In this document: piece after piece, positions 309 through 28,969 of the stretch
How the letters are laid out: each line of letters opens with the position of its first letter
Numbering within the stretch: position 1 is the stretch's first letter
DNA from: a virus
DNA: 38,432 nt
Virus record (IMG/VR): IMGVR_UViG_3300031951_000495
Coordinates: 1-38,432 of that record
Reading direction: 5' to 3' (one strand)
Notes under the pieces: generated by a model
Told to the model about the DNA's origin: nothing
The model's database searches: none
The model's input: only the letters and a program-made list of their open reading frames with translations
Program-made: the position numbers and the translations under genes

Positions 309-620
309 ATGGCAGTAGACCGAGGCTATGGATCTGGTGCGGCTAAGCGCAGCAAGAGGCGACCGCTAAGCGGCGCCGAGCGTGCTCGCGCAAAGGGTCT
401 ACGAGAAGGTACCATTGGTCGCCGTTCTGATGCGTCGCCGTTCAACGACATCAAGGGTCGGGCGATTGGCTGGGACGAACTGGCGAGTCTAGCCGCCGCC
501 GCTGGGTTCTCGATCGCTGGAACTGGAATGGTTCGGACGAGGTCGTCAAACCCGTCACCGTCCAGGTCTTCATACGGGTATTTTGGCAAACCAATCAAAC
601 AACCAAAGAGAGGTCGATAA
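309..620 (+). CDS. Small basic protein, unknown function
   Basis: A 103-aa protein with roughly a fifth Lys/Arg, no membrane segment and no recognised domain. Residues 19-26 (RPLSGAER) resemble the PMSGAEY stretch of the protein at 1312-1590, suggesting a shared short binding motif among these neighbours. The start follows AGGAG at 299-303. It is the first gene of the left operon and shares TAATG with the next gene, whose ribosome site is written in its C-terminal RGR codons. The basic character suggests nucleic-acid or scaffold contact, which is inference. Confidence 0.75.
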   Translation: MAVDRGYGSGAAKRSKRRPLSGAERARAKGLREGTIGRRSDASPFNDIKGRAIGWDELASLAAAAGFSIAGTGMVRTRSSNPSPSRSSYGYFGKPIKQPKRGR

Positions 621-1312
621 TGGCACGACGATTGAACCCAGATAACGCTACCGCCAACGCTCGGGCGCAGAAGGTCACCATCGGCAAGAAGAAGTTGACT
701 AGCACTCAGGTCATCAAGCGCAACAACCGCAAGTTGGCTGCATCGCCAATTGGTAAGGCTGCTGGTCTTGCCATGGCATTCCTGCCAGTTGGACGCGCTG
801 CGCAGATCGCATCACGACTGAACGCAACTGGTCAGGCTGGAAAGGCTGCAATGATTGCCCGTCGATCGGCAGCAGCAGAGGCTGGTCGTACGTCGTCAAA
901 ACTATTTGCCGAAGCAACTGCAAAGTCACGTTCTCTTGGTAACAAGAGGTTCCAGAAACTTGCTCAAGAGGCATGGGACCAGAAGTGGCTTGGTCAGAAT
1001 CTTAGAGATTCTGCACGTAACCTTCCAAAGGTTGCAAGTCTTGCTGTCCGACCAACCATTGGTAAGAACTTGGCAAGGGCTAACCGAGCAAGTTCAGAGG
1101 TTAAGCAGGCACAAGCAGAGTTTAGTGCGGCTCAAACGGCTGCAAGGCAAGGTCGACCTGGTTCACTTGCGGAACTTGAACGAGCAAATTCAGTGCTTCG
1201 TCGTCTACAGACTCGCGGCGTTGGAAAAGGAACTGTAAGTGTCGGCAAGGGTACGATCAACAAGAAGGGTCTTGCAGCACTTAACAAGAAACCATTCCCA
1301 GGTGGTCGATAA
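620..1312 (+). CDS. Ala/Lys/Arg-rich basic protein, unknown
   Basis: A 230-aa, highly basic, alanine-rich and probably helical protein. Its N-terminus (MARRLNPD) resembles that of the protein at 3287-3985 (MARRISPD), hinting at a duplicated N-terminal tag. Residues 45-65 form a mildly hydrophobic stretch (AAGLAMAFLPVGRAA) that could be a short amphipathic or membrane-touching helix. It starts at the TAATG overlap with the upstream stop and ends in GGR, whose codons carry the next gene's ribosome site. No family is recognised. A DNA-binding or virion-internal role is possible but unproven. Confidence 0.75.
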   Translation: MARRLNPDNATANARAQKVTIGKKKLTSTQVIKRNNRKLAASPIGKAAGLAMAFLPVGRAAQIASRLNATGQAGKAAMIARRSAAAEAGRTSSKLFAEATAKSRSLGNKRFQKLAQEAWDQKWLGQNLRDSARNLPKVASLAVRPTIGKNLARANRASSEVKQAQAEFSAAQTAARQGRPGSLAELERANSVLRRLQTRGVGKGTVSVGKGTINKKGLAALNKKPFPGGR

Positions 1313-1590
1313 TGCCAGGTAAGATGATTCCACGTAAGATACGGGTAAAGCGCCAGGTCAAGGGCAGCAAGCCGAACAATCGACCTATGTCTGGTGCAGA
1401 GTATGACCGCAGCCGAAGCGGAGCCAACACGCTTGGTCCTAACTTCGCTGACAAGCGCCGCGCTACTGGCGGAAATGTATACGACCCAAAGAAGGTCGAC
1501 CTTTTCAACATGAGCGGTTTTATCGGTAAATACAAGTACGTCTATCCAGAGCGCCTAGAGGCGAAGCGTGGGGGACGCAAGAAGGTCTGA
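1312..1590 (+). CDS. Small basic protein with MPGKMIP N-terminus
   Basis: A 92-aa basic protein beginning MPGKMIPRKIR; the protein at 2994-3287 begins MPGKMIPVKGR. The shared eight-residue opening in two otherwise different proteins of one operon looks like a functional tag (for example for packaging into the virion) or the trace of a duplication. Residues about 24-30 (PMSGAEY) echo the first gene of the operon. The start is fixed by the TAATG overlap with the upstream gene. The stop TGA overlaps the next ATG. No enzymatic motif is visible. Confidence 0.75.
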   Translation: MPGKMIPRKIRVKRQVKGSKPNNRPMSGAEYDRSRSGANTLGPNFADKRRATGGNVYDPKKVDLFNMSGFIGKYKYVYPERLEAKRGGRKKV

Positions 1591-2231
1591 TGGCAAAGCG
1601 AGGGTTTACCAAGGGTAAGAAGCGAGAGATTCCACTCAGCCAGATGAGCAGAGCGGAATACAACGCAAGGATCGTTCAGTCTCAGGGCGCAAAGCGAGTT
1701 CAGCAGCGCCGAAACGATATCTCTGCAAATGCCCTCGAGTTTGCCACTGGATTCAATAAGCGCGACGGCGTAGACCTTGGTGACATTGGCGGTCTAGCGA
1801 TCACCGCAGCCACGCTAGGGTCTGGGTCCCTCATTAGGGGCGCAGCGCGACGAGCAACTGCCGCTGGGCTTAAGGATACCATCATTGCCAAGGGCGGGGT
1901 TACGATTAACGCTAACTCAATGAAGGTCGTTTCCCCTAAGCGCGGATACTCAGTTGGAATCACTAACAAGACGGCGATTAAGATCCCTGTTAAGAAGGCT
2001 AACGCTGGTAACATTGCAGACGCCTTTGACAAGATTAAGAAGCAGTACAACCCGAAGAACATGGGTGCATGGGTCGAGCGTGGTCAGATCCACATCGATC
2101 CAACCCGCATTGTAAAATCATACGGAAAGGCACAGAGGATCGGTCGAAAGATGAATCAAGACAGCGTCTACTCATTTGGTGCCAACCGTGGAAAAGGTGC
2201 AAGCCTAAAAGTCATTAGGCGAGCAAAATGA
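1590..2231 (+). CDS. Basic protein, unknown
   Basis: A 213-aa Lys/Arg-rich protein. The N-terminal 45 residues are very basic. Residues about 65-90 are Gly/Ala-rich and weakly hydrophobic. The C-terminal half reads as a mixed alpha/beta segment with IHIDPTRIVKSYGK near residues 165-178. I recognise no family. It starts within TGATG shared with the preceding stop and ends in an ATGA overlap with the HELLH protein, so the genes are probably translationally coupled. Placement between small basic genes suggests an accessory virion or DNA-binding role, by context only. Confidence 0.75.
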   Translation: MAKRGFTKGKKREIPLSQMSRAEYNARIVQSQGAKRVQQRRNDISANALEFATGFNKRDGVDLGDIGGLAITAATLGSGSLIRGAARRATAAGLKDTIIAKGGVTINANSMKVVSPKRGYSVGITNKTAIKIPVKKANAGNIADAFDKIKKQYNPKNMGAWVERGQIHIDPTRIVKSYGKAQRIGRKMNQDSVYSFGANRGKGASLKVIRRAK

Positions 2232-2629
2232 GCACGCGCCTAGAAGAGGCGCAGCGGTATGTCGACAACGCGAAGCGCATTCTGAACCTCTCTCAGTGGG
2301 AGATCAAGGTCAAGGACTACCCTTCGGCTGAGGATGCGTATGCGGACATCGAGCCGCACGATCAACTCTGGCACGCGAAGTTGCGCCTCTCCGAGGACTT
2401 CTTCAAGGAGCCCGCTGTCGAGCAGCGGAAGATCATCGCCCATGAGTTGCTCCACCTGCACTATGCAGGAGTGGAGCGGCTGGTAAACAGTACCGAGTCC
2501 GTCATGGGGACGGCAGCGTACGACCTCTACTCGAAGGTCTGGGATATCGAGATCGAGCGGGCAGCGGATGCGCTGTCTGGACCAGTCGGCGGTCTGTTGC
2601 CGATTCCAAAGTTCAAGGGGACAAAGTAA
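2228..2629 (+). CDS. Putative zinc metalloprotease (HELLH)
   Basis: A 133-aa protein with the zincin signature HELLH at residues 72-76, followed by LH (H78), and a later glutamate cluster in DIEIERAAD (E108/E110) that could supply the third zinc ligand. This layout fits small SprT-like or phage metallopeptidases, so peptide-bond hydrolysis with bound zinc is likely; the substrate is unknown. Codon choice looks more GC-rich than in its neighbours, so it may have been acquired separately. It starts in ATGA overlap with the upstream gene and ends in TAATG overlap with the next. Possible roles include virion protein processing or degradation of a host protein. Confidence 0.7.
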   Translation: MSTRLEEAQRYVDNAKRILNLSQWEIKVKDYPSAEDAYADIEPHDQLWHAKLRLSEDFFKEPAVEQRKIIAHELLHLHYAGVERLVNSTESVMGTAAYDLYSKVWDIEIERAADALSGPVGGLLPIPKFKGTK

Positions 2630-2994
2630 TGGCAATTCGAAATGTTCGACGACCAGTTGGTCCAAAGCCGCCGAGCGAATCTGGCGACGGTCGAGTATAC
2701 GCTGGCGGGTCTCCATACTTCAATGAGGCAACTGGAACCTATCGACCAGGAACCCCAAAGGATATCCTTGACCGAGTCTACGGTCGAGGTCGTAAGGGAG
2801 ATAGACCTGATCGCGGAATTAACCCGCCTCGTCCACCACGCGGACGAAAGCCAAAGCCTGGAAAGGTTGACGATGGTCGTAGGACCATCATGCCAGTCCC
2901 GCCAAAGGGTGGAAAGCGACGACCGATGATTGATCCAGAGGATCGGGGTCGTAAACTGACAACTAGAAAGCAGACTAATAAGGGGTGGCGATAA
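2629..2994 (+). CDS. Pro/Arg/Gly-rich basic protein
   Basis: A 121-aa low-complexity protein rich in Arg, Pro, Gly and Lys, probably largely disordered. Residues about 47-80 are a run of RGRKGDRP and PPRPPRGRKPK-type motifs that look like an RNA- or DNA-binding tail. No folded domain is recognised. It is linked by TAATG overlaps on both sides. The C-terminal codons for KGWR hold the ribosome site of the next gene. Its nature agrees with the other basic proteins of this operon. Confidence 0.7.
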   Translation: MAIRNVRRPVGPKPPSESGDGRVYAGGSPYFNEATGTYRPGTPKDILDRVYGRGRKGDRPDRGINPPRPPRGRKPKPGKVDDGRRTIMPVPPKGGKRRPMIDPEDRGRKLTTRKQTNKGWR

Positions 2995-3287
2995 TGCCAG
3001 GTAAGATGATTCCAGTAAAAGGTAGGGTTGTCGGAAGAAGGGGCGGGAAGAATAAGAATAAGCAAAATCCTACTCGCGGAGTTCCATCGAGGGAGCAGCG
3101 ACAACTTCCATACACACCAATCAACAAGCCAGGAATTAAGGGTGGTCCTCGATCAACCGCACCTGGATACAATCCAAAGAAGCCAATGATTCTCACTCCA
3201 ATTGGGAAAAAGTCTGGCGATATGGGAAGCAAATCAAGAAATCAAAGATTCCCACAGAGACTTCCAAGTAGGCGCGGAGGTCGATAA
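2994..3287 (+). CDS. Small basic protein, second MPGKMIP protein
   Basis: A 97-aa Lys/Arg/Gly/Pro-rich protein opening with MPGKMIPVKGR, almost the same first eight residues as the protein at 1312. A GTG at 2985 lies in frame, but the ATG at 2994 is preferred because it forms the TAATG overlap used across this operon and matches the paralogous N-terminus. The rest shows no similarity to the first copy, so only the tag is shared. It ends with RRGGR, whose codons contain GGAGGT for the next gene. Function unknown. Confidence 0.72.
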   Translation: MPGKMIPVKGRVVGRRGGKNKNKQNPTRGVPSREQRQLPYTPINKPGIKGGPRSTAPGYNPKKPMILTPIGKKSGDMGSKSRNQRFPQRLPSRRGGR

Positions 3288-3985
3288 TGGCACGTCGAAT
3301 CAGCCCAGATACGTATAAGAAGAAGAAAAGTAATCCTTCTCAGCCTGAGCAATTCCCCAAAATGACCCCTACGGCTGAGGGATTCCTTCGTCCGTTTGCA
3401 AACGAAACGTACCGACGTGCCTACAAGAAGACACAGGTACAGAACGAACGATCTGGCGCTAAGCCAGTCGTAAAGGCTGCGAACAAGGAGCGTGAACTTC
3501 AACGTATTGCAGCACGTCAAAGGCTGCGAGGGAATCCTTTTGCCACTGTAAATAGCGCGAAGAAAAATTATGCAAAGCGGGCAAAGCAACGTGCCGAAAT
3601 TGGTCCAAAAACCGATAAGGCTGTTGGAACCAGGCAGCGTGGATTCGTCAACGACACCATGGACACATCGCTCAATCCTTTGGGCGGTGGTCCTCGACCG
3701 ACAAAGAACCGATTCCTCAATACATGGGTAAGTCCTGATGTTGCGTCACCAAAGCGACCAACACAGATTAGCGTAAAGACACGTGTGTACAGTGGCGGTA
3801 AGCACGGCGGTAACGTGAGCGGGGATGTAAATCGACCAAACAAGGGAATTAAGCAGGACAATAGTGGTGTATATGCCGTGAAGAACGAGTACACACTCTA
3901 CGGTCCAAACGCACAGAAGAGAAGCCTCCCGTTCTGGGGGAAGCGTGGTGCCGCTGACAAGGGCACCAGAAAGACAGGACGATAA
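3287..3985 (+). CDS. Basic protein, unknown (MARRISPD N-terminus)
   Basis: A 232-aa Lys/Arg/Asn-rich protein without membrane segments or known catalytic motifs. The N-terminal MARRISPD resembles MARRLNPD of the protein at 620. Residues about 60-105 are Lys/Arg/Ala-rich and probably helical; the second half is Gly/Asn/Thr-rich and may be beta-structured or disordered. It starts inside TAATG after GGAGGT and ends in the same way before the 49-aa protein. Membership of the basic operon suggests co-packaging with DNA or virion assembly, by inference only. Confidence 0.72.
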   Translation: MARRISPDTYKKKKSNPSQPEQFPKMTPTAEGFLRPFANETYRRAYKKTQVQNERSGAKPVVKAANKERELQRIAARQRLRGNPFATVNSAKKNYAKRAKQRAEIGPKTDKAVGTRQRGFVNDTMDTSLNPLGGGPRPTKNRFLNTWVSPDVASPKRPTQISVKTRVYSGGKHGGNVSGDVNRPNKGIKQDNSGVYAVKNEYTLYGPNAQKRSLPFWGKRGAADKGTRKTGR

Positions 3986-4134
3986 TGCCAATGATCGAGG
4001 GGAAGAAGTTCCCATATACCAAGGCTGGTAAGAAGGCTGCCAAGGCTTATGCTGCAAAGCATGAGAAGGGCGAGTCTAAGAAGGAACAGATCATGGAGTA
4101 CGGCAAGGTCAAGCGCAAGGGCAAGAAGAAGTGA
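3985..4134 (+). CDS. 49-aa conserved phage-type basic protein
   Basis: ATG at 3985 overlaps the upstream stop (TAATG) and TGA ends at 4134. The product begins MPMIEGKKFPYTKAGKKAA and ends in a KRKGKKK tail. From general knowledge, proteins with a K-x-F/Y-P-Y-T-x-x-G opening are widespread in tailed phages next to head genes, with no assigned function. The protein is helical and basic. It forms a three-gene cassette with the two following genes, sharing GTGA with the next one. Confidence 0.65.
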   Translation: MPMIEGKKFPYTKAGKKAAKAYAAKHEKGESKKEQIMEYGKVKRKGKKK

Positions 4135-4292
4135 AGCCAGGTCTATACGCGAATATCAACGCTAAGCGCAAGCGAATTGCTGCTGGCTCTGGCGAGAAGA
4201 TGCGTAAACCTGGATCTAAGGGCGCTCCTACGGCAAAAGACTTTAAAGATTCTGCTAAAACAGCAAAGGGGCGTAAGAAGCGTGGCGCGTAA
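4131..4292 (+). CDS. 53-aa conserved phage protein (KPGLYANI type)
   Basis: GTG at 4131 overlaps the TGA of the previous gene, giving a 53-aa basic protein that opens KPGLYANINAKRKRI and continues with GSGEKMRKPGSKGAPTA. I recognise this pattern from many unrelated tailed phages, where it is a small conserved hypothetical protein usually beside the HNH-like protein that also follows here. Its function is unknown. The Gly/Lys-rich centre suggests nucleic-acid contact. It ends at TAA 4290-4292 inside the start region of the next gene. Confidence 0.7.
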   Translation: MKPGLYANINAKRKRIAAGSGEKMRKPGSKGAPTAKDFKDSAKTAKGRKKRGA

Positions 4293-4503
4293 CTACGCCC
4301 GAGAGTACGCAACGTACCAGGGAACACCAGAACAGATCAAGAATCGAGCCTCCAGAAACGCCGCACGGCGCAAAATGGAGAAGAAGCACGGTAAGGCAGC
4401 CCTCAACGGCAAGGATGTCGACCACAAAGATGGCAATCCTCGCAACAATGGGCACAAGAACCTTCGTGTGACATCAAAATCGCTGAATCGAAGCAAGAAA
4501 TAA
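4282..4503 (+). CDS. Small HNH-domain protein
   Basis: A 73-aa protein starting at GTG 4282 and overlapping the previous gene by 11 bases. The C-terminal half carries an HNH-type core: DH at residues 47-48 in the strand DVDHKDG, asparagines at 55-56, and KNLRV at 59-63. The N-terminal half is an Arg/Lys-rich helix. Proteins of this size with R-N-Y-x-x-E-Y at the start are common in phages and are usually annotated as HNH endonucleases. The metal-binding histidines are few, so nuclease activity needs proof. It may act in packaging or genome processing. Confidence 0.7.
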   Translation: MARNYAREYATYQGTPEQIKNRASRNAARRKMEKKHGKAALNGKDVDHKDGNPRNNGHKNLRVTSKSLNRSKK

Positions 4504-4512
4504 CGGAGTAGA

Positions 4513-5919
4513 ATGGCAACATTTAGGTTTGTCAATCGAGATATTGACATTCACTGGAACGGATACGACATCACTGGTCCAGCAGGGACAGTGTTCAGCA
4601 TCCCAGACCAACTTTATGAGGAGTTCGAGGGCGACCTTCGCCCTGTCGAGCCGTCCCTTGAGTGGATTGACACCAATGAGTTCCAGACGCTGGAAAATCA
4701 GGTGTCTACTGCAAATCTATTTGCCACACTGCCGATTGCAATTGCAAGCAGCACCACTGGAAAGACGATTTCGCTCAACTCTGGCACTGCGCTCAACGGG
4801 TATCTGCTTGTTGCAGACGGTGCTGGTGGAACGATCTGGAACCCAGCGTCAACTTCTGGTCTCACATCGGTTGTTGGAGTATCTCCAATCTCAACCACGA
4901 TCGCTGGTGGCGTGGCTTCTGTATCCCTTTCTGCAAACTACCAGACCGCAGGTACCTACGTCAATGCCGTTATCGGCACATCGCCCGCGTCCGTATCAAC
5001 ATCATCTGGCACATCGACGGTGTCGATCGATCAGGCGGCAATCACTGGTGCAACAGCGGCGACAAACGCCCAAGTCGTTCGATTCTACGTCAAGAATACT
5101 ACAGGTTCGACGATTCCAAAGGGGTCTGCCGTCTACGTCTCTGGCGCAACTGGCGACAATGCCCTTATCTCGCTTGCCTCAGCCACCGCAGACCCTACGT
5201 CATCCAAGACGCTTGGTATCACTTTGGCGGATATCGCAAATGATGCCTTCGGATACGTCGTCGAGTCGGGTTACATTACCGACATTGATACATCATCTAC
5301 CACTGCTGGAGCAGCCGTTTGGCTTGGGAACACTCCTGGATCGCTAGTATTCGTAAGCCCACCAGCAGAGCCAAGCCATGCTGTATACCTTGGAGTAGTG
5401 GTCCGAGTTCAGTCACAAAACGGATCCATCCTTGTCAAGGTGCAGAACGGCTACGAACTTGACGAACTCCATGACGTGTTTGTTGGTGGCGTAAGCACTG
5501 CATTGCCACTCGTATACAGCAGCACGTCATCTGGGTGGATTGCCCAGGCTCTCAGTTCTGTGGGCATTGCGGACAACGCCATCGTATCCTCCAAGATCAT
5601 CGATGGAGCAGTAACGTCCGCTAAGGTGGCAGATAATGCCATCGTCACATCCAAGATCGTCGATGCCGCAGTTACTTCTGCAAAGATCGGCGCTGACGCG
5701 ATCAACTCAACGCACATTGGACCCAATGCCGTTGTCGCAGGTGATATTGCAGCAAATGCCGTCACGACAGGAAACATCCTAGACGGATCGGTAACGGTTG
5801 CAAAGATCAACTCTGGTGCTGCCGCTGCCGATACGTTCCTGGCATCCAATGGTGACGGTACGGCTTCGTTTAAGACTGTTGAAAGCGGATTTAATCCTCT
5901 ACTTCTGATGGGAGCATAA
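4513..5919 (+). CDS. Tail fibre/collar protein with decapeptide repeats
   Basis: A 468-aa beta-rich structural protein. The N-terminal 60 residues form a separate small domain, likely the virion attachment part. Residues about 190-320 form a beta domain (opening KNTTGSTIPKGSAVYV, ending ELDELHDV) that I know from many phage tail fibres. Residues 353-432 are eight near-decapeptide repeats of the form x-D/N-x-A-I/V-x4-I/V, expected to fold as a beta-helix. The tail TFLASNGDGTASF is typical of fibre tips. No chaperone or peptidase domain is seen. It is the first gene of the fibre module, 9 bases after the HNH gene. Confidence 0.8.
   Translation: MATFRFVNRDIDIHWNGYDITGPAGTVFSIPDQLYEEFEGDLRPVEPSLEWIDTNEFQTLENQVSTANLFATLPIAIASSTTGKTISLNSGTALNGYLLVADGAGGTIWNPASTSGLTSVVGVSPISTTIAGGVASVSLSANYQTAGTYVNAVIGTSPASVSTSSGTSTVSIDQAAITGATAATNAQVVRFYVKNTTGSTIPKGSAVYVSGATGDNALISLASATADPTSSKTLGITLADIANDAFGYVVESGYITDIDTSSTTAGAAVWLGNTPGSLVFVSPPAEPSHAVYLGVVVRVQSQNGSILVKVQNGYELDELHDVFVGGVSTALPLVYSSTSSGWIAQALSSVGIADNAIVSSKIIDGAVTSAKVADNAIVTSKIVDAAVTSAKIGADAINSTHIGPNAVVAGDIAANAVTTGNILDGSVTVAKINSGAAAADTFLASNGDGTASFKTVESGFNPLLLMGA
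5569..5808 (+). repeat. Eight decapeptide-coding repeats in tail fibre
   Basis: Eight tandem 30-base units encode residues 353-432 of the fibre protein. The units read like ADNAIVSSKI, IDGAVTSAKV, ADNAIVTSKI and VDAAVTSAKI, with more diverged final units. The first four alternate between two subtypes, which suggests doubling of a 20-residue unit. Such tracts can expand or contract by recombination and so change fibre length. Confidence 0.75.
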
Positions 5920-8239: not shown

Positions 8240-8725
8240 GTGGACGTCAAGGACCTCGCACCAGTACTCACTGGGTGCCATGTCTGCCGATCCCCGCTCG
8301 TTGAGTTAATCAACAAGCGCATGAAGGATGGAATGCCAGACATGAAGATTGCTGAGTGGCTAAAGACTGAAGGATACTACATTAGTCGCAATACGCTCGG
8401 CAAGCACAAGCGAGAACACTTGACCAGCCCGCACGAGGCGGCACGAATCGTCGCCGTCAAGAAAATGGAGCAGGCGCAGCGCACCATCAAGGCGCAGCAC
8501 CGAGACCTAGCGAACCTCGTAAGGGATTTCGTATTCTCAGAAGTAGAGTCTGGAAACATGACTCCGACACTCTCCGAGGGTCTGCGAGCACAAGAGATGA
8601 TCGATAAGCGGAACGATAAGACCGCCGATCGAGACCTCATGGTCTCACTAGCGCAGATCCTCGGTGGTGCAACGACTACGTACGAGGTTATCGAGGCAAA
8701 GCCAGTGCAGGCAATCGAAGAATGA
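8240..8725 (+). CDS. Zinc/HTH DNA-binding protein, possible terminase small subunit
   Basis: A 161-aa protein starting at GTG 8240, directly after the holin stop. The N-terminus has a C-x2-C pair (C13, C16) and an H-x3-H pair (H56, H60) framing a helix-turn-helix-like segment (MKIAEWLKTEGYYISRNTL). Residues 64-125 are helical and could be an oligomerisation region. Phage proteins with this Cys/His plus HTH layout are often next to packaging genes. With the large terminase 1.4 kb downstream and no other candidate, it is my best guess for the small terminase subunit, but it could be a regulator. Confidence 0.45.
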   Translation: MDVKDLAPVLTGCHVCRSPLVELINKRMKDGMPDMKIAEWLKTEGYYISRNTLGKHKREHLTSPHEAARIVAVKKMEQAQRTIKAQHRDLANLVRDFVFSEVESGNMTPTLSEGLRAQEMIDKRNDKTADRDLMVSLAQILGGATTTYEVIEAKPVQAIEE

Positions 8726-9180
8726 CCAAAGACTGGGTGTACGTCGGCGGAACGTTTGACCTTTTCCACTATGGGCACGTTAAGTTTCTGGAAGAGTGCC
8801 GAAAGTACGGTCCAGTGCTAGTGTCGCTGAACACTGATGACTTCGCAGCACGATACAAGAGGGAGCCAATCCTAACGCTCGGTGAGCGTCTTGAGTCACT
8901 GAAGGCATGCAAGTTTGTCGATGACATTTGCGTCAACATTGGCGACGAGAACACTGGTCTAACGATAGACAAGATCACCGACAGGAGTATCGCCTACATT
9001 GCCCACGGGGACGACTGGTTTGGAGAGGACCTCCTGCATCAATTGGGAATTAGCGAGCAGTGGCTCTCCGATCGGGCGATTAAGATGCTTTACGTTCCAT
9101 ATACGCAAGGAATTTCCACTAGCGACATCATTGGGAGGATTACTAGTGAAACTGGCTGCAATTGCCACAATGTACGGTAG
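8722..9180 (+). CDS. Glycerol-3-phosphate/sugar-phosphate cytidylyltransferase-like protein
   Basis: A 152-aa nucleotidyltransferase. Residues 9-19 (GGTFDLFHYGH) give the HxGH motif at 16-19, and residues 131-137 give the ISTSDII motif; both bind the nucleotide triphosphate in the TagD/RfaE-II family. It should couple CTP (or ATP) to a phosphorylated polyol or sugar, releasing pyrophosphate. Length is close to TagD. It starts in ATGA overlap with the upstream gene and is followed by a glycosyltransferase that begins inside its 3' end, so both likely act in one glycan step. The exact substrate cannot be read from the sequence. Confidence 0.8.
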   Translation: MTKDWVYVGGTFDLFHYGHVKFLEECRKYGPVLVSLNTDDFAARYKREPILTLGERLESLKACKFVDDICVNIGDENTGLTIDKITDRSIAYIAHGDDWFGEDLLHQLGISEQWLSDRAIKMLYVPYTQGISTSDIIGRITSETGCNCHNVR

Positions 9181-9790: not shown

Positions 9791-10102
9791 ATGCCAAAGA
9801 CAGCAGCATGGCAACGAAAAGAAGGTCAGAGCGCCAAGGGCGGCTTGAACGCCAAAGGTCGCGCATCGTATAAGGCGCAGACTGGCGGAACGCTCAAGGC
9901 TCCAGTCAAGCGGGGAGATAACCCGCGTCGCGCATCGTTCCTTGCGCGCATGGGCGGAATGCCAGGACCAGAGCGTGATGAGAAGGGTCGACCAACCCGA
10001 CTACTCCTAAGCCTCCAAGCATGGGGCGCAAGCAGCAAGGCTGATGCCAAGCGCAAGGCTGCTGCAATTAGCGCACGCAACAAGGGGACTCGTGGTCGGT
10101 AA
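9791..10102 (+). CDS. DUF6321-like small basic phage protein
   Basis: A 103-aa basic protein that begins MPKTAAWQRKEGQSAKGGLN. It contains DNPRRASFLARMGGMPGP (residues 43-60) and a KPTRLLLSL-like strand (PTRLLLSLQAWG), which I recognise from a conserved phage family (DUF6321). The function of the family is unknown; it typically lies near terminase or head genes, as here. The arginine- and lysine-rich sequence suggests nucleic-acid binding. It starts one base after the glycosyltransferase stop and overlaps the terminase start by 11 bases. Confidence 0.75.
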   Translation: MPKTAAWQRKEGQSAKGGLNAKGRASYKAQTGGTLKAPVKRGDNPRRASFLARMGGMPGPERDEKGRPTRLLLSLQAWGASSKADAKRKAAAISARNKGTRGR

Positions 10103-11588: not shown

Positions 11589-13822
11589 TGGCTAAGGTAC
11601 GAGCAGTTCCACGAGCGTTCCAGGGGACGCGAGCAATCCCAGGTCAGTACACGACTGACCCAGATATCGCTACGCCAGAACAGATCAGGTCAATCGGGAC
11701 GTCGCTGGACAAGGCAAAGCGCATTGGTAAGGGCGAGCGCGTCATCACCCCAATGCCGCAGGGCAAGCCAGTTGTGTCCAGCCTCAAGGCTCCGAAGACC
11801 AAGTACGGATCTACCGCAGCCTCAATTCCGCTGGCAAAGGATGGTATTGCCCCAGATATCGCCACATCACCAACGATCGTAAACTACACTACTGGCGCAA
11901 AGGGCACGCCAATCAAGAAGCAGTTCGCCAAGTTGGATGTCGAGCGCCTAACCGAGTCGCAGGCAGCATCGGTGAAGATGCTGAAGACCAGCCTCGAAGT
12001 ACAGGACATCAACCCAGACACGAACTTCGAGTTCAATCTCTTTGGGGAAGTCCTGATGCGAAAGCAGACGGGCGAGCCAGAGCAGAACCGACTCCGCGCT
12101 TTGTTCCGACGCTTTGATAACCTCTACCACCCTAACGTCATCACCCTCGGCGGTGCTGACCACTGGGCGGATGATGCAACGGCTCGTACTGCTGGTCGAG
12201 CGCACGTCTCAGTCAACGTGCATGCCGCATACGTCAACATCCCTGCCTCACTTCAGGCAGTCATGCCAGTCATCAACTACATTCCAGCGGGCGAGGATAA
12301 AGACTCTCGAATGCTGGCGGCAAACGCAGAACGCCTGTTCTTCCGATGGGCTGAAGAGAATCAGTTCGATCTACTCCTGGAAGATGCGTGCTTCATCAAG
12401 TCGCTGTACGGGTACACGGCTGGCAAGATCTACTGGGATGCCGAGAACAAGATTCCTCGCCTGCGCATCGTCGAGATGCCAGAGAACCTGTACCTTGGGT
12501 TCGGAATGTCGGACTTCAGCCGCCTTGACTGGGCGATCTACACCTACGGCATGAGCCCGCAGGCTGTTGAGGAGGATTACGGCATCAGGGTCGTCGCCAC
12601 GCAACAGGGTGGCAAGTGGTACAACTACACCGCCTCGACGCACGATGACCCAATCGCCAACGTCTACCAGAACCAGTTCGAGCGCAACCCGCTACGACGC
12701 GAGACGCCGTACGAGATGCAGCAGGTCGAAGTGTACGACTATTGGTACAAGGTGCCAGGAGCCGCTGGCAAGGCACCGACGGTCTACAACGCCATCTTCG
12801 TCGGCAACACGCTGGTAAAGAACACGGCGCATCCAGAGTACCGAGGCGAGATCCCATACATCCTGCTGTCGAACGCGAAGGTTCCTGGCAGCCCGTATGG
12901 TAAGCCAGAACTCTACGACGTGGAGCAGTTGCTCCGAGAGAAGGATGAACGCATCACCAACCAGGCGCAGATGATCCACTCGGTCATCGGCGGACAGATG
13001 TTCCAGTTGGTTGGACCAGAAGCGCCAGACGAAGTCCCAGCAAACGCGATCCCAAAGCCAGGGAAGATGGCGGCGCCTGGACCTGGCAACGAGATCCGAT
13101 CGATCTCGCCATTCATCCCGCAGTTCCAGATCGAAGACTACAACAGACGAGTCGACAGAGAGATCGCGGTGGTCACGGGGCTTAATGACCTCCTCCTCGG
13201 GCTTGCCCCTTCGGGCGTGCTCGGGTCATCCCGTGCCATCGCGTCTCTCGTCGCAAACTACGAGGCACGCATTGCCCCGAAGCGCAAGTTGCTCTACGCC
13301 TGGGTGAAGAAGGTGTGGAAGATGTGCGCCCAGATGTGGGAGACAAAGCAGCCAGAAGTTGGTCTTGTCTTCGAGGGCAACTACCGACTTGAGATTACGC
13401 CGCCTGAACTCACGCCACGAGATACACTCGAACTGGCGCAGACAGCAATCAACCTTGTCCAGAACCGCATCTGGAGCGCGGAGCGCGCAATGGATCGCGT
13501 GGGCGTAGAGGACCCAGAGGGCGAGATGATTGTGATCCGCGAAGAGCAGACGGACGCTACACTGAACCCATCCTCGGTGATGGCAATGGCAAACCTGATG
13601 CAGATGTTCCAGCAGATGGGACTCCAGCAACAGCAGATGGCTGCCGAGCAGTTCGCTCAACAGCAGGCAAGCGTTGCCAATACCGCACGTACGTTACAAT
13701 CACCAGCGGCTGGTACGCAGTCGCTTAACCAGCCAGAGAATCAGGCGCAGCCTCCAGCAGAGGCTATCCCAGAGAACGCGCTCGCACAAAACGCAGCGCC
13801 AGAAGGTGAGGTACCCGCATAA
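11588..13822 (+). CDS. Portal protein
   Basis: A 744-aa protein in the usual place directly after the large terminase. Residues about 195-330 (SVNVHAAYVNIPASLQAV to YTYGMSP) and 500-560 (VVTGLNDLLLGLAPSGVLGSSRA) match the portal core known from podovirus-like and other phages. The C-terminal 100 residues are Gln/Ala/Pro-rich and probably disordered. The first ~110 residues form a basic extension with repeated IPxxxxPDIATPxxI-like phrases. The dodecameric portal forms the DNA channel and the docking site for the terminase and connector. It is joined by TAATG overlaps on both sides. Confidence 0.85.
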   Translation: MAKVRAVPRAFQGTRAIPGQYTTDPDIATPEQIRSIGTSLDKAKRIGKGERVITPMPQGKPVVSSLKAPKTKYGSTAASIPLAKDGIAPDIATSPTIVNYTTGAKGTPIKKQFAKLDVERLTESQAASVKMLKTSLEVQDINPDTNFEFNLFGEVLMRKQTGEPEQNRLRALFRRFDNLYHPNVITLGGADHWADDATARTAGRAHVSVNVHAAYVNIPASLQAVMPVINYIPAGEDKDSRMLAANAERLFFRWAEENQFDLLLEDACFIKSLYGYTAGKIYWDAENKIPRLRIVEMPENLYLGFGMSDFSRLDWAIYTYGMSPQAVEEDYGIRVVATQQGGKWYNYTASTHDDPIANVYQNQFERNPLRRETPYEMQQVEVYDYWYKVPGAAGKAPTVYNAIFVGNTLVKNTAHPEYRGEIPYILLSNAKVPGSPYGKPELYDVEQLLREKDERITNQAQMIHSVIGGQMFQLVGPEAPDEVPANAIPKPGKMAAPGPGNEIRSISPFIPQFQIEDYNRRVDREIAVVTGLNDLLLGLAPSGVLGSSRAIASLVANYEARIAPKRKLLYAWVKKVWKMCAQMWETKQPEVGLVFEGNYRLEITPPELTPRDTLELAQTAINLVQNRIWSAERAMDRVGVEDPEGEMIVIREEQTDATLNPSSVMAMANLMQMFQQMGLQQQQMAAEQFAQQQASVANTARTLQSPAAGTQSLNQPENQAQPPAEAIPENALAQNAAPEGEVPA

Positions 13823-16800
13823 TGGCACGACGTGGACGATTTGGACAAGCAACAACTGGGGGATCTAACCTAAGTTCTTTCATGAACAGTTTGATTCAGC
13901 AGAGCATCAATATGCGCGAGCGTGCGCTTCTTAACGCATTCAATGACCAGACCACGTACGGTGGCGGGGTCCCTAACTCATCTGACATCGAAGATTATGT
14001 GAACTCGCGAACTGAGGGCATGGACCCGAACTCGGCAGAGTACGCATACTATCAGAACATGTTGGAGAACGCGAAGCGACAGGAACGCGCTCGACAGGCA
14101 CAGTCTGCTACCACGGCGTTCAACGCCACCATGGGCGATAACTTCGACGACTTCATCGATCAGATCTCATCGCTGTTGAGCGGCGATATTAGCGAGACTG
14201 AGCGACAGGAGTTCCAGGCGTTGCTTGCGCAGAAGACTGCTGAGTACGTCGACATTGTTGCTGGTCAGTATGAGAATGGATCGGTAACCTACGACGAGTT
14301 GCTCCAGAAGACCGACAAGGCGATCGGGATGCTCACTGGTACACCGCAAGAAAATGCCATCGTGCTTCGAGCGGATTCCATCATGAAGCGCGAGGCGCAG
14401 TCGATGGACACTGGCATGCTCTCTGGCGACGACTACCGCCTCCGAGTGCAGGCTGCGTTCAGGGGCATTGACCCAACGTCACCGACGTGGTTTGACCTTA
14501 ACAACAAGTTGTTTACCACCATCTGGAATCGTGAGATCGATAATCAGTATGGTAAGGTGATGGCTGCCCAGGACAAGCCGACTGGGACGCAGATCAAGAA
14601 GACCCAGGCGTACCTAGAATGGGCGAGGGGAAAACTAAACGACCTGCGTGCTTCTGGCATCACTGGCGGAGAACTGTTCGACGCAATCAGGAACAACATC
14701 AGGGAGTACGCAAACAATCTGTCTAGCCTGAGAATCAAGGCTGGTCATGAATTGTACAACGCAAGGCTTGCAAATACGCAGGCTTCACAGAAGACACTTG
14801 ACCTATTCGCAAATCAGGCTGCCGTCTATATCTCGACAGAAGCGTCTAAGGATCTTATGTCGATGGAAGGCGGAGTTACAATGAGCAACTTGCTCAGCGT
14901 TGACCCATTTGCCATGGTCAGGTATTTCGACTTGAACCCAGCGGCACAGGCTGAATTCGATACTGTGCTTTCAGAGTATCGAGACAACTCCAATGGGCTC
15001 ATGGCAACGGCAAAGTCAATAGGCGTAAGCACCAGTGAGGCTGCTGGATTCAGAACCTACGGTACTGAAGTTGCGCGACGAACTGGTCAAGACACGACTC
15101 TCGAAGATTACGAGGACGCCTTTGAGGTTAAGCAGCGTCTCATCTCCGAGGCTCAGGGCGATGACTTTGCCATCAACATCATCAATAACGACTGGAGAAA
15201 ATTCCTTCAGGGAAACGCAACTGGGACATTCGGTAAGGGAATCGCTCCTACATCCAGTTCACTGTTTGCTGGTCTTGTTGGAAACGAGGCTGCCCTTTAC
15301 GAATACGGGGTACGTGGAGCGCAGTTCGATGGCGTTGGGACAACGTTCGTAGACTTCATTATTCCGAGGATGGCAGAAGAAGGGGACGATCGGTCAAACA
15401 GCCAGATCGAGGCTGAGTACGCTGCAAAGACTGCGCAGAACTCGCAACTTCTTCTTGATGGAAAGGCTGTTCGATACATCGACTCTGCTGGCAGGGGCTC
15501 TACCATCGGTCTCCGACAGGCTGACCAAGGAGTTGGAGAGTACATCTTTGCAGAACCAAATAAGTATGGCAAGGTGCTCCCGACCATCCGACAGGGTATC
15601 CGAGTGGTTGGCACAAACAGGGGATCTGAGGTTGCTGGCGCAACATGGGGATTCTACTACCCAGACACTGGCGTGTGGGTTGAGGCAAGCACTGGAAATA
15701 AGTTTACCAAGCCGCCTATCCAGATGAGGAACGGTGGCGCCCCAGAATACGATGACAACGGAAATCCAGTTCGGGTTACGTTTGATATTGACCCAGGCAT
15801 GCTGGGACCAGACGGTGTCAGCCTGGCAAAGAACACCGACGGATCAACCATTAGCGTTGCTTCAGCGGCAAAGTACAAGGCTGTTGCTCCAGTAGCAGTG
15901 TCCGAGGCTGTTGCCGTACTAGGCAGGAATGCATGGATGACGGGCGGTCCTGGATCGATTATCGGCAAGCAGACCCTCGATGCGATTACCTATTCCATGG
16001 ACGAGAAGCAGAAGGCTGAAGTTGAGGCTGAGGTTGCAATCAACAACGAGCGTCTGTCAAGGTTCGATGTTGGGTATGGCGAAAGCAGGCTTACAAAGGA
16101 AACTCGACCAACCGATGTCACTACGACCTTCGATAAGTTCCTTGGATCTGGTGCCACGGAAAACGGTCAGCCGAAGTACGCATCAATCATTGTCCCAGGG
16201 GCAAAGCCTGGGACGTGGGTGTTCAAGCGTGTCAACTACGCTGACGCATACGACCAGGTTGCGCCTGGCGTGTTCGTCCGAAAAGAGTCTGCAACTGCGA
16301 TTGGCGATCCAAAAACTGGTGCTATTGCAGACGAAAGCAAGCAGTTCTTCCCGAAGACTATTGACGTCTCTGGAATGGTCAACACTCCAGCGATTAAGCC
16401 GTATGTCGACTCTGGCGTTGTCAAGGTTCCTCAGGCAAGTGGCGCGGACGCCTCGGTTGGTATCCAAAACTACTTCTTCAGGAACTCGTCCATGCCTTCG
16501 GCTAATAACCAAGACATTGTTGCGTCACGCGCTGGAACATCGTCCAGTGCCCCGCAGATTCAGATGTACAGCAACCTAATGTCGGCACAGCCAATTATTG
16601 ACTTCAGGGCTTCTGAGCGAGCATCGCTCGGTACGCTTGGGGTTTCATCTGGTGCGCCAACAATTAGCATGCCATCTGTCCCAAGGCTTGGGTTGCCATC
16701 GCTTAGCGGCGTGGCTGGTGACTCGTCAAGGGAGCGTAGCAGCGTAATTGGAGGAATGCAGACTCCGACGATTAGGATGCCTAGCATTTCATCTCCGACC

Positions 16801-16824
16801 CCAGGTAGTATTGGAGGGCGTTAA
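13822..16824 (+). CDS. Large virion protein (1000 aa), possible ejection protein
   Basis: An exactly 1000-residue protein placed between portal and scaffold. The first ~350 residues are helical and charged. Residues about 480-800 are beta-rich. The last ~120 are Ser/Pro-rich and disordered, with two copies of the phrase P-T-I-x-M-P-S (APTISMPSVP and TPTIRMPSIS). No lysozyme, transglycosylase or peptidase motif is visible, and no membrane segment. Size and position fit an internal virion or ejection protein, loaded with the head. A tape-measure role is less likely because long hydrophobic coiled-coil stretches are missing. Family not recognised. Confidence 0.75.
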   Translation: MARRGRFGQATTGGSNLSSFMNSLIQQSINMRERALLNAFNDQTTYGGGVPNSSDIEDYVNSRTEGMDPNSAEYAYYQNMLENAKRQERARQAQSATTAFNATMGDNFDDFIDQISSLLSGDISETERQEFQALLAQKTAEYVDIVAGQYENGSVTYDELLQKTDKAIGMLTGTPQENAIVLRADSIMKREAQSMDTGMLSGDDYRLRVQAAFRGIDPTSPTWFDLNNKLFTTIWNREIDNQYGKVMAAQDKPTGTQIKKTQAYLEWARGKLNDLRASGITGGELFDAIRNNIREYANNLSSLRIKAGHELYNARLANTQASQKTLDLFANQAAVYISTEASKDLMSMEGGVTMSNLLSVDPFAMVRYFDLNPAAQAEFDTVLSEYRDNSNGLMATAKSIGVSTSEAAGFRTYGTEVARRTGQDTTLEDYEDAFEVKQRLISEAQGDDFAINIINNDWRKFLQGNATGTFGKGIAPTSSSLFAGLVGNEAALYEYGVRGAQFDGVGTTFVDFIIPRMAEEGDDRSNSQIEAEYAAKTAQNSQLLLDGKAVRYIDSAGRGSTIGLRQADQGVGEYIFAEPNKYGKVLPTIRQGIRVVGTNRGSEVAGATWGFYYPDTGVWVEASTGNKFTKPPIQMRNGGAPEYDDNGNPVRVTFDIDPGMLGPDGVSLAKNTDGSTISVASAAKYKAVAPVAVSEAVAVLGRNAWMTGGPGSIIGKQTLDAITYSMDEKQKAEVEAEVAINNERLSRFDVGYGESRLTKETRPTDVTTTFDKFLGSGATENGQPKYASIIVPGAKPGTWVFKRVNYADAYDQVAPGVFVRKESATAIGDPKTGAIADESKQFFPKTIDVSGMVNTPAIKPYVDSGVVKVPQASGADASVGIQNYFFRNSSMPSANNQDIVASRAGTSSSAPQIQMYSNLMSAQPIIDFRASERASLGTLGVSSGAPTISMPSVPRLGLPSLSGVAGDSSRERSSVIGGMQTPTIRMPSISSPTPGSIGGR

Positions 16825-22127: not shown

Positions 22128-23402
22128 ATGAATATTCTCGTTTGGGGGACCGCAGAGCAAGGTCCTTGCGCTTACTTCCGCGGTCATATGTTCGACGAAG
22201 AGTGGTCGAAAATGGGCATCAACGTTCGCCACATCGACAAAGTAAACTTCATTGCGAACAAAGATGCGATTGGGATGACCCAAAGCGAAGCGATAGCAAA
22301 GGGTCTCCTAAAAGTAGATACCAGTGACATCGACTGGGCAGACGCCATCATGTTTAGGCGTTACTACAACTGTTCTGCAAAGTGCGATACGTGCGGAGCG
22401 GCGTCAAAAGACCCGCAATTTATCACCAAGCATGAGCACTCCATGAAGATTCGGGACTCAGTTACAGACTGGATGTACCCAGCCTTCGAGAGCGAAAACA
22501 ACACGAAGGCGATGATCTACGAAACGGACGACAATCACTTCCAGATCCGTACGTGGAATGGCTACTTCCCAGACGTTGTTGCAGAACGACCACTTATCGA
22601 AAGGATGGCTCGGAGAGCCGACCTAGTCACCGTTAGCACAGGACCAATTAAAGATGCGTATTCTCATCTCAACAGTAACATTAGGGTTATCCGCAATGCA
22701 ATCGATCCTTCAATCTATACTACTGGCGCTTCTCGCCCCGAGCATGGTGGCGAAAAGCCTCGCGTGGTCTATTACGGTAGCACCGCGAGAATGCGAGACT
22801 ACGCAGGATACCCAAGCGGAGTCGGTGGCAAGTGGGAGGGCGGGTACGCTGCAAAAGCCATCGAAGACTTCCGAAAGGAACTCTGGAACGTTTTCATTGG
22901 AGTAAACCCAGGGACTGAGCACGTTATCGCTCCGTTCTTCGACGAGGCGTTCCACTACGTAGAAAACATCAAGCAGTTTGCCGAGAATCTTGCAAAGAGT
23001 TATCCAGACATCGGGATTGCCCCGCTTGGCGGCGACAGTTTCGATAGATGTAAATCAGAGTTGCACTGGCTGGAATACTCCATGGTTGGTGCAGCATTTA
23101 TCGGTGAGCGGTTCAAGTACGGAGAGGCTCCGTATTCAATGGTTCGGCATGGCGTTGACGGCATGCTTGCCAAGGGGAGGCAGGAATGGCACGACGCAGT
23201 CAAGGCGCTAGTCCGCAGTAAGGACTTGCGCGAGCAACTGGCTGGGGCTGCGAAGGAGCGTGTCCTCAAGGAATACGATTACAAGGATCGAGCAAAAGAA
23301 TGGGCGGACGCCTTCAAGTGGGCAGTAGAGCATAAGGGGATTTGGAAGCATGGCAGAGACACTAAGCAGCATTCGGACAATGGTCCGTCGGGACCTTCGT
23401 GA
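22128..23402 (+). CDS. GT-B glycosyltransferase (moron)
   Basis: A 424-aa protein with a GT4-like GT-B shape: an N-terminal Rossmann opening NILVWGTAEQGPCAYFRG, a middle linker with VIRNAIDPS and VVYYGSTARM (residues ~190-220), and a C-terminal donor half containing IAPLGGDSFDRCKSELHWLEYSMVGA, the region that binds the nucleotide sugar. A Cys cluster (CSAKCDTCG, residues ~78-86) could hold zinc, unusual for the family. It is inserted between capsid and connector with its own promoter. Its last 53 bases overlap the connector gene, so the C-terminal ~17 residues (GRDTKQHSDNGPSGPS) may be a read-through tail. Confidence 0.75.
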   Translation: MNILVWGTAEQGPCAYFRGHMFDEEWSKMGINVRHIDKVNFIANKDAIGMTQSEAIAKGLLKVDTSDIDWADAIMFRRYYNCSAKCDTCGAASKDPQFITKHEHSMKIRDSVTDWMYPAFESENNTKAMIYETDDNHFQIRTWNGYFPDVVAERPLIERMARRADLVTVSTGPIKDAYSHLNSNIRVIRNAIDPSIYTTGASRPEHGGEKPRVVYYGSTARMRDYAGYPSGVGGKWEGGYAAKAIEDFRKELWNVFIGVNPGTEHVIAPFFDEAFHYVENIKQFAENLAKSYPDIGIAPLGGDSFDRCKSELHWLEYSMVGAAFIGERFKYGEAPYSMVRHGVDGMLAKGRQEWHDAVKALVRSKDLREQLAGAAKERVLKEYDYKDRAKEWADAFKWAVEHKGIWKHGRDTKQHSDNGPSGPS

Positions 23403-27788: not shown

Positions 27789-28180
27789 GCGATCTAGACA
27801 CCATCATCTCGAAGCAGATTGCCGTCGACTTCGACGATACGCTGGCGATCGATGTGCTTGGCGAGATCGTCCCGACGAACGGGGCGAAAGAGGCAATGTC
27901 TCGTCTTTGGCAGGCTGGGTACATCATCGTCGTGCACTCGGCTCGGGCATGGGAGGGATTCCCTGACCGAGGGGAAAAGACGCGCTGGATGGCGGAGTGG
28001 CTGCACAAGCACCACATCCCGTACCACAGGATTCATACAGGGTACGGGAAGCCAGCGGCGATTGCGTACGTCGACGACAAGGCGATCAAGTACGACAACA
28101 ATTGGAAGGAGATCGTGGATTGGCTCATTGCCCGCAAAGGCGTGGAGTTTAGCCACGGGAAGACGGGAGTGAAGAAGTGA
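27785..28180 (+). CDS. HAD-family phosphatase
   Basis: A 131-aa protein from GTG 27785 (overlapping the phosphoesterase stop). HAD motif I is DFDDT (D15, D17, T19), motif II is around S52 (HSARAW), the lysine of motif III is K89 (GYGKPAA) and motif IV is the D97-D98 pair (YVDDKAI). All catalytic residues are present, so it should remove phosphate from a small substrate. The next two genes are sugar-nucleotide enzymes, which suggests a sugar-phosphate, as GmhB does in heptose synthesis. A nucleotide phosphatase is the alternative. It shares GTGA with the next gene. Confidence 0.7.
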   Translation: MSDLDTIISKQIAVDFDDTLAIDVLGEIVPTNGAKEAMSRLWQAGYIIVVHSARAWEGFPDRGEKTRWMAEWLHKHHIPYHRIHTGYGKPAAIAYVDDKAIKYDNNWKEIVDWLIARKGVEFSHGKTGVKK

Positions 28181-28968
28181 TTGTCATCCTAGGGAGTGGA
28201 CAGGCATCGCAACATGTACAGGCGGAACTCGACAGCCAGAACGTCAAGTACGTAGTCTTGAGCCGCAACCACTGGGCGGACTACGAGGAACTGCTCGGGC
28301 TCATCGCGGATGCCGACCCGAAAGCGGTCATTAACTGCGCGGCTCAGCGGGACATCGCCCTCTGCGAGGAGCAGCCGCATACGGCGATCGAGGCAAACGT
28401 GAATCTTCCTCGGCTTGTCTCGGTGGCTGGCTTCAAGCAGATCTACATTAGCACCGACTACGTCTACGACCTGAACAAGGAGAACCGCGTCCTGCATGAG
28501 GACGAGCCGAGCAAAGGTGCGCTCTCGGTCTATGGTCATAGCAAGTTGGAGGGCGAGAAGGCGGTCCTTGAGAACGGCGGCATCGTCGCTCGTATCAGCA
28601 GCCCGTTTGGTCCGAAGAAGTCCCCATTCAAGCCGTCGTTCGTGGACTTTGTGGCTTCGTCGTTTAAGAACCTAGAACTGCCGATCGACCAGCACTTCCG
28701 CCCGACGTACATGCCAGACGCAGCCAAGGTGCTTGCGTCGTTGGCGCTTGACGAGATCCCAAGCGGCGTGTACCATGTCGTCAACGAAGGCACGACCGAC
28801 TGGGCAATGCTCGCTCGTTTCGTGCGTGAGAAGGTCGGTAACAAATACAAGATCATGCCAGTAACACGGAAGGATACGACTCGACCAGAGTGGGGCAACC
28901 TAAAGAACACAAAGTTGGGGAAACTGCGCCACTGGTCGGATGCAATGCTGGAATACCTGGGGAGGTAG
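28177..28968 (+). CDS. rmlD: dTDP-4-dehydrorhamnose reductase-like SDR
   Basis: A 263-aa extended short-chain dehydrogenase. The nucleotide-binding loop is GSGQAS (residues 6-11). ISTDYVYD (91-98) and the catalytic Y119-x3-K123 (VYGHSKLEGE) match RmlD, which reduces dTDP-4-keto-rhamnose with NAD(P)H. FRPTYMPDAAKVLASLAL and the GVYHVVNEGTTDW segment are also RmlD-like. The product could be an activated deoxysugar for the phage glycosyltransferases, together with the RmlC homologue at 32275. No RmlA or RmlB homologue is seen, so the host must supply dTDP-4-keto-deoxyglucose. Start GTG overlaps the previous stop. Confidence 0.75.
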   Translation: MIVILGSGQASQHVQAELDSQNVKYVVLSRNHWADYEELLGLIADADPKAVINCAAQRDIALCEEQPHTAIEANVNLPRLVSVAGFKQIYISTDYVYDLNKENRVLHEDEPSKGALSVYGHSKLEGEKAVLENGGIVARISSPFGPKKSPFKPSFVDFVASSFKNLELPIDQHFRPTYMPDAAKVLASLALDEIPSGVYHVVNEGTTDWAMLARFVREKVGNKYKIMPVTRKDTTRPEWGNLKNTKLGKLRHWSDAMLEYLGR

Positions 28969-28969
28969 G

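Follow-up and report, generated by a model that had tools for sequence, protein, structure and literature searches.

Introduction

Tail-fibre anchors and polymorphic toxins combine a conserved docking N-terminus with an exchanged C-terminal working end. Within phage heads, the closest described parallel is that of the internal proteins of phage T4 (IPI-III), diverse small proteins that begin with a short conserved peptide, the capsid targeting sequence, and that are described as DNA-bound head proteins injected into the host (PMC3012670). In phage P1, a reporter reaches the capsid when it carries only the first 30 residues of DarB, and the same work reports that BLAST finds no consensus among the N-termini of the Dar proteins (PMC9024508). 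Here we describe a cluster of eleven genes (g1 to g11, positions 309-4503) at the left end of IMG/VR virus record IMGVR_UViG_3300031951_000495, analyzed over its whole length of 38,432 nucleotides (nt; hereafter the window), in which short N-terminal peptides, or tags, recur on unrelated small basic proteins.

The cluster resembles the T4 system in that a short conserved peptide heads diverse small proteins, and the role that we would propose for these proteins, DNA-bound in the head and injected, is the known role of the T4 internal proteins. It differs in carrying several tag classes (A to D, defined below) within a single phage, in belonging to a podovirus-like phage with records of up to about 42 kb, and in that no prohead protease was recognized among the proteins scanned. 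Profile searches placed neither g1-g10 (PHROGs) nor g1-g11 (Pfam) in any head or internal-protein family; judged by such profiles, the tag system may work like the T4 internal proteins and would not be a member of their family. The P1 parallel is looser, DarB being a protein of 250 kDa and the Dar system one that counters restriction, whereas the tags described here are shared and the proteins small. As for the fibre anchors, the N-terminus of the fibre protein in this phage group shows the same pattern of a kept end; the difference from both anchors and toxins is that the bodies are small and basic, without a recognized enzymatic domain except in g11, and that several tags are interchangeable. 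Finally, g10 and the protein encoded at 9791-10102 belong to the families phrog_16028 and DUF6321 of cyanopodoviruses, pelagiphages and roseophages, and both families lie near capsid genes in HTVC031P, S-RIP2 and P-SCSP1u; tags A-D, on the other hand, were not seen among the small neighbors translated in five regions of such phages. We regard g10, g11 and the DUF6321 protein as members of known families, and the tag system, if the mechanism holds, as a variation on a known principle. No description of arrays of tagged basic proteins was found in the literature on virion proteomics, capsid targeting and DUF6321, which was not searched by the tags themselves.

Tags recur on unrelated bodies

The eleven open reading frames (ORFs) at 309-4503 all lie on the + strand, overlap at each of their ten junctions by 1-11 nt, and form the start of the structural-gene operon, in the same orientation as the fibre, terminase, portal and capsid genes directly after them. 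A preliminary description of the window had called most of the eleven products rich in Lys and Arg, which is true of ten (K+R 20-35%, net charge +12 to +36, isoelectric point 10.1-12.0) and fails for g5, which is acidic. It had also pointed to shared starts and a shared SGAE phrase, and these were accurately seen. MPGKMIP heads g3 (1312-1590, 92 residues, net charge +17) and g7 (2994-3287, 97 residues, net +23), encoded by identical 21 nt in both, and MARRxxPD heads g2 (620-1312, 230 residues, net +36; MARRLNPD) and g8 (3287-3985, 232 residues, net +35; MARRISPD), with six of the eight residues in common between two proteins that blastp does not match at E<=1e-3. SGAE stands at residues 21-24 of g1 and 27-30 of g3, with SRAE in g4. 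For g7 we take the ATG at 2994, which fits the junctions, where the ORF list had a GTG at 2985.

With the relatives included, the starts fall into tag A (M-x-x-D-[KR]-[GS]-Y-G-[ST]-G), represented in the window by MAVDRGYGSG of g1 (309-620, 103 residues, net +15); tag B (..[LI][NS]PD) of g2 and g8; tag C (MPGKMIPVKGR, complete in g7); and tag D (GKKFPYT), which begins g9 (3985-4134, 49 residues, net +12) as MPMIEGKKFPYT. To gather relatives, IMG/VR was scanned for the capsid protein, g8, g5 and the start of the fibre protein, which is conserved, and regions of further records were added. Basic proteins were listed from 34 loci (the window included), 20 further regions and the loci L153 and L155; the all-versus-all comparison took in ten of the 20 further regions. 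Genes were called with a custom caller trained on this window, so that some starts may be wrong, and most loci were recruited through the fibre start or g5, so that the sample favors clusters adjoining them. An 80% identity collapse, the sole step of redundancy removal, reduced 252 basic proteins to 128, and setting aside six that are DUF6321 or peptidase-like left 122.

Among these 122 proteins, blastp gave 65 full-length pairs, 61 partial pairs anchored at the N-terminus, 20 partial pairs anchored at the C-terminus and 39 others, as against 441, 20 (six of them fibre), 34 and 68, respectively, among 272 non-basic control proteins of the same loci. Relative to full-length pairs, N-anchored partial pairs are thus far commoner among the basic proteins than among the controls (Fisher p 3e-30), and, since blastp pairs are not independent, the size of the effect counts for more than the p value. 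A MARR start occurs at three of 124 basic N-termini, two of them g2 and g8, and at none of the 272 control N-termini.

One and the same tag heads unrelated bodies, and bodies that are homologous differ in their tags. Tag A is found on 15 proteins longer than 60 residues, which fall into seven body clusters. The body of g2 (residues 50-203), behind tag B, matches residues 89-240 of a protein of locus L081 (L081_5609, E 1.5e-31) whose start, MAVDKSYGSG, is a tag A; L112_1334, with tag A, and L089_6689, without it, have a body in common at 68% identity; and L108_788 and L110_1762 have a common C-terminus (74%) and different N-termini. A single C-terminal module stands behind tag C (L110_2862, L114_2147), behind an NPD tag (L105_7507, L120_7513) or behind neither (L123_1547). 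In L081, the closest non-identical relative among those whose clusters were examined (g8 78%, g4 79% and g5 90% identical; L080 is a contig with the same cluster, its g8 being 100% identical), the gene at the position of g7, before the g8 homolog, carries the tag-C-like MPGKIAP on a different protein of 64 residues. Tag D is present on at least three kinds of body, and the g9 start GK[KE]FPYT is fused directly to the g10 body in L108, L114, L133, L135, L137, L140 and L153.

This pattern bears on a proposal, already raised in the preliminary description, that the cluster is a duplication family, in which one ancestral basic protein was copied and the bodies evolved fast while the N-terminus evolved slowly. 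Two tag-A genes do occur in one genome in L121 and, flanking a g5 relative, in L115 (3373-3777 for that relative), L114 (1100-1492) and L153 (1461-1853), with L155, which was not rechecked, alongside the last; and eight of the 15 tag-A bodies join in one single-linkage cluster. A single family of this kind was nevertheless rejected, full-length homology being limited to 65 of the 185 matching pairs beside the 61 N-anchored partial ones. Plain duplication is insufficient because homologous bodies carry different tags, and the seven body clusters behind tag A and the several kinds behind tag D tell against it as well, so that we consider it improbable as the whole account.

The tags themselves seem to be restricted in their distribution. 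When MPGKMIP was written as a degenerate pattern, its 20-nt core found eight IMG/VR stretches, six of them in this phage or its relatives and the other two in a 62-residue frame of another contig and in a frame of 11 codons, which, like the MARR counts above, speaks against chance sharing; the tag-A pattern, limited to DKGYGSGK, found eight stretches in seven contigs, all of this phage group. On these pattern counts, tags A and C look particular to the group.

Tags are conserved as peptides

Among the relatives, the codons for tags A, C and D diverge synonymously while the encoded peptides are kept. Ratios of non-synonymous to synonymous differences (pN/pS, Nei-Gojobori proportions over the tag codons of hand-chosen representatives) are 0.20 for tag A (13 sequences; 0.18 over codons 2-18 in eight sequences), 0.20 for tag C (seven sequences; 0.04 over 11 codons in four sequences) and 0.13 for tag D (ten sequences). 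In L115, where the g5 relative is flanked by tag-A genes at 2795 and 3780, the two genes encode an identical 18-residue tag, MGVDKGYGSGKPRSAANS, yet over codons 2-18 they differ at 11 of 13.8 synonymous sites and at none of 37.2 non-synonymous sites; their blastp match ends at residue 41, and the bodies beyond are unrelated. The preliminary description had named a search of relatives for the tags on different bodies as a check, and that check supports it, the tags also being conserved at the protein level with pN/pS between 0.04 and 0.20.

A competing account is that the shared starts are recombination or translation linkers, the junction sequence and the first codons supplying homology for the swapping of cassettes while the encoded residues remain passive. 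The junction, GGTCGATAATG, comprises the end of one gene, a stretch resembling a ribosome-binding site and the next start, a makeup that would also explain the recurring C-terminal -GR. Its core GATAATG, usually within GGTCGATAATG, stands at five of the eleven cluster starts and at none of the 32 other gene starts listed in the window, which has two further + strand copies and a minus-strand one (25154); across the window and the loci of 28 relatives, it stands at 26 of 167 basic-ORF starts. A run of 27 nt is identical between the window (1299-1325) and L081 (7794-7820), where it heads different genes, and the exact 21 nt common to g3 and g7, like the tag-A pair of L153 (10 nt differences in 28 codons), belong on the same side of the balance. 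Part of the DNA that g3 and g7 share is in fact junction (GGTCGATAATG) rather than tag, so that the identity of the two starts first pointed out is exact as peptide and in part a matter of the junction. From the sequence, GGTCGATAATG would serve as a junction for translation coupling and cassette exchange, and the g3/g7 identity together with the close L153 pair indicates that recent copying also happens. As the sole cause of the shared starts, however, junction DNA was rejected because the tags diverge synonymously while the peptide is kept, as in the L115 pair. Tag A, moreover, continues beyond 18 residues in several proteins, and the 40 nt upstream differ between the paired tag-A genes in L115 as in L153. 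We thus think it unlikely that the tags are passive linkers.

Possible links to the virus particle

A link of these proteins to the particle is suggested by gene position and by shared starts. Between the portal and the scaffold/capsid genes lies a gene for a protein of about 1000 residues (13822-16824, + strand), a putative ejection protein by its position, whose N-terminal MARRGRFG belongs to a hyperconserved start, MARRGRFG....G..NLS..I, ahead of a rapidly diverging body. In 39 sequences, the fraction of the majority residue is 0.86 over residues 1-10, 0.62 over residues 11-25 and 0.27-0.36 beyond residue 100; the adjoining protein of 1204 residues has no such N-terminal peak. In two relatives, small basic proteins near the terminase gene have starts like that of the large protein of their own contig, with similarity scores of 46.0 (as high in 0 of 786 null scores) and 36.5 (as high in 0.13%), and a third comparison, of a basic protein of L120 with the large protein of the window, scored 30.0 against a null maximum of 29.5. 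A search of solved structures had offered influenza HA2 for the large protein (best E 0.079), which we set aside as chance.

A further small basic protein, encoded before the terminase gene (9791-10102, + strand), belongs to DUF6321 (PF19846, 2.9e-23), a name that did not appear in the literature searched. In other aquatic phages its family adjoins, close to capsid or terminase genes, that of g10 (4131-4292, 53 residues, net +14), the GLYANI family phrog_16028, whose profile matches g10 at E 3.7e-27 (95 bits) over its residues 1-47, nearly the whole protein; the g10 family too is present in cyanopodoviruses, pelagiphages and roseophages. In Pelagibacter phage HTVC031P, relatives of the two stand between the scaffold and capsid genes; in S-RIP2 they stand between the head-tail connector and capsid genes, preceded by a large acidic protein; in P-SCSP1u they come just after the capsid gene, and in MW202483 they lie beside the terminase gene.

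We suggest, as a tentative reading to which we give somewhat less than an even chance, that the tags are portable address peptides that load small DNA-binding or ejected proteins into the head, in the manner of the T4 internal proteins. The cluster would be a cassette array of small basic proteins at the head of the structural-gene operon, each cassette consisting of a short portable N-terminal peptide and an exchangeable basic body, with the stop/start junction joining one gene to the next. As address labels, the peptides may bind to the scaffold, the portal or the shell while the head is being assembled, and the proteins so enclosed with the DNA would then enter the host along with it. Acting on a varied host, whether on its defence, its membrane or its nucleic acid, the body would vary, and the label would stay because it must keep fitting a conserved particle; g5, inside the array, is a candidate processing protease for the tagged proteins. 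Small Lys/Arg-rich genes adjoining the structural genes of a phage are readily overlooked as unknowns. Were the tags head-loading labels, injected phage proteins of uncultured viruses could be recognized by them from sequence, several loading peptides would be at hand, and the bodies would form a natural series for trials against host defences; were they not, the array would still exhibit peptide-level selection on swappable protein starts, and another cause for it would be needed.

Several points weigh against head loading. It leaves four tag classes in one phage without explanation. Beyond MARR, neither g2 nor g8 has a tag significantly like the N-terminus of the large protein (fractions of the null 0.064 and 0.36), and the pN/pS estimates cover tags A, C and D. 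The g3 and g7 tags are identical in DNA, for which recent copying suffices, and g10 and many copies of g9 are kept nearly whole, so that not every member is a tag with a variable body. A prohead protease of a known family was not found among the proteins scanned, a part of the ORFs of the window, g5 being zincin-like though. The literature searched yielded no virion proteomics for this group or for phages with the g10 family; in the P-SCSP1u structure paper, the words “mass spectrometry” are absent from the main text (PMC10575957).

An elaboration of head loading is a multi-label cargo system, in which at least five labels (A, B, C, D and RGRF) would each fit a different site on the growing head and load small basic effectors that are quickly exchanged, as stop-start cassettes, via GGTCGATAATG, with g5 as a possible protease trimming or freeing them. 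We hold this fuller scheme to be doubtful.

It could also be that the proteins act in the infected cell and not in the particle, as basic binders of nucleic acid, ribosome or membrane whose tags address them to a host target such as the nucleoid or the ribosome. The cluster genes come first after a leader for which a strong promoter is proposed. The matches of g1 to ribosome modulation factor are very weak (E 0.044 and 0.0059), both profiles falling short of their cut-offs (Pfam 14.3 bits against 27.9; a second profile 16.5 against 40), and g1 cannot be assigned to that family. Hydrophobic residues cluster at p<0.01 in seven of 103 basic proteins, g1 included (an Ala-rich segment at residues 57-75), and in none of 150 controls, whereas an absolute hydropathy of 1 is passed more often by the controls (60 of 150) than by the basic proteins (30 of 103); with seven of 103, and p of 0.10 for g2 and 0.39 for g4, no general hydrophobic segment was found in the basic proteins. 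Against a purely intracellular role stand the continuation of the operon into structural genes, the capsid genes that adjoin the g10 and DUF6321 relatives elsewhere, and the tag-like start of the large, probable virion protein. We judge it unlikely that the tagged proteins work in the cell alone. The histone-like cargo that had been proposed for the capsid found no support beyond charge, in that PHROGs and Pfam profile scans matched no cluster protein to a histone-like or nucleoid family, and the AlphaFold model of g2 is helical at low confidence (mean predicted local distance difference test score, pLDDT, 61.6).

Other genes of the cluster

Four + strand genes of the cluster have so far been mentioned in passing. 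The g4 protein (1590-2231, 213 residues, net +30) begins MAKRGFTKGKK; its AlphaFold model is unusable (pLDDT 37.8), and a comparison with solved structures gave no match. The g5 protein (2228-2629, 133 residues, net -5, isoelectric point 5.5) has H72, E73, L74 and H76 together with E110, R111, A113 and D114 invariant in all 12 aligned relatives (HEL[LI]H and E-R-x-A-D), and this conserved HExxH with a downstream acidic residue predicts a zincin metallopeptidase of the SprT/ImmA-like kind, the SprT-like Pfam match being below the cut-off (15.2 bits against 25.6). A WD-repeat resemblance of g5 (solved-structure search, best E 0.022) was dismissed as chance. The g6 protein (2629-2994, 121 residues, net +20) is rich in Pro, Gly and Arg, and g11 (4282-4503, 73 residues, net +14, GTG start), assigned to HNH_3 and phrog_4590, passes the Pfam gathering threshold of HNH_3 as a sequence-based prediction (35.3 bits against 24.8).

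Two observations concern single proteins of the relatives. A stretch around SPFN..KG.AI.W.E is common to g1 and a relative in L114 (1494-2147), and the basic proteins at L089 6689-7084 and L112 1334-1690, the former without and the latter with tag A, contain a Gly/Ala-rich hydrophobic stretch resembling a membrane hairpin.

The leader upstream of the cluster

Upstream of g1, the + strand stretch 116-308 is a probable promoter and structured 5' leader of the operon; the motif TTTTCGTGGTTATATATGGGGGGA lies at 163, and the two hairpins are GGCTCCCCG/CGGGGAGCC and CCCCTCC/GGAGGGG. The motif, in the form TTTTC[GC]TGGTTATATgGGGGGA, occurs once in the window. Fourteen distinct sequences of it, from the window and 13 relatives (L081, L105, L108, L109, L110, L116, L120, L121, L132, L134, L135, L137 and L139), are each followed, 122-170 nt further on, by the first predicted gene, which codes for a basic protein every time; L115, L104, L089 and L086 have a different leader.

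The first stem (leader 163-296) varies in sequence and stays complementary, as GGCTCCCCG/CGGGGAGCC, ACGAACCC/GGGTTCGT, GATCCAGTG/CACTGGATC and ACCTCCCCG/CGGGGAGGT. It was picked by script in 11 of the 14 leaders. The second hairpin shows double changes and is supported by RNAalifold, which does not support the first, misaligned by MAFFT. The leader has no match in Rfam and may be a regulatory RNA not yet described. In L081, DNA that precedes the leader matches the window's right end; the genes called there run on the minus strand, so that the leader sits between divergent gene sets. Stretches of this right end (38267-38432) recur in L081 upstream of the leader, at 2032-2196, 2893-2953, 3583-3650, 4179-4229 and 4787-4818, and are perhaps a repeated intergenic element.

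The phage and its relatives

The window is a single IMG/VR virus record, and the phage is known solely from metagenomes. Its structural genes include those for the large terminase subunit (TerL), the portal, a phrog_1357 capsid protein, a Dit-like protein and an SU10-type adaptor. Searches of a phage collection by tblastn with TerL, g8 and g9 gave no match, though the low-complexity filter may hide Lys-rich queries; for the capsid protein it holds relatives, among them those of the podoviruses Page, Pony and Pascal of Bacillus megaterium. We read the uncultured phage as probably podovirus-like because no tape-measure or tail-tube gene was noticed among the proteins scanned, a subset of the ORFs of the window; the Dit-like match argues to the contrary, for a longer tail. 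A host search in genome contigs returned 28 pattern stretches, none of them a relative.

Between phages the content of the cluster differs, and in the loci compared it mostly lies directly upstream of the fibre gene, a position that is partly a matter of selection because many loci were found through that gene. Elsewhere in the window, at 8722-9180, 22128-23402, 28177-29929 and 32254-32826, genes resembling those for cytidylyltransferase, glycosyltransferase and nucleotide-sugar epimerase/reductase were noticed by eye.

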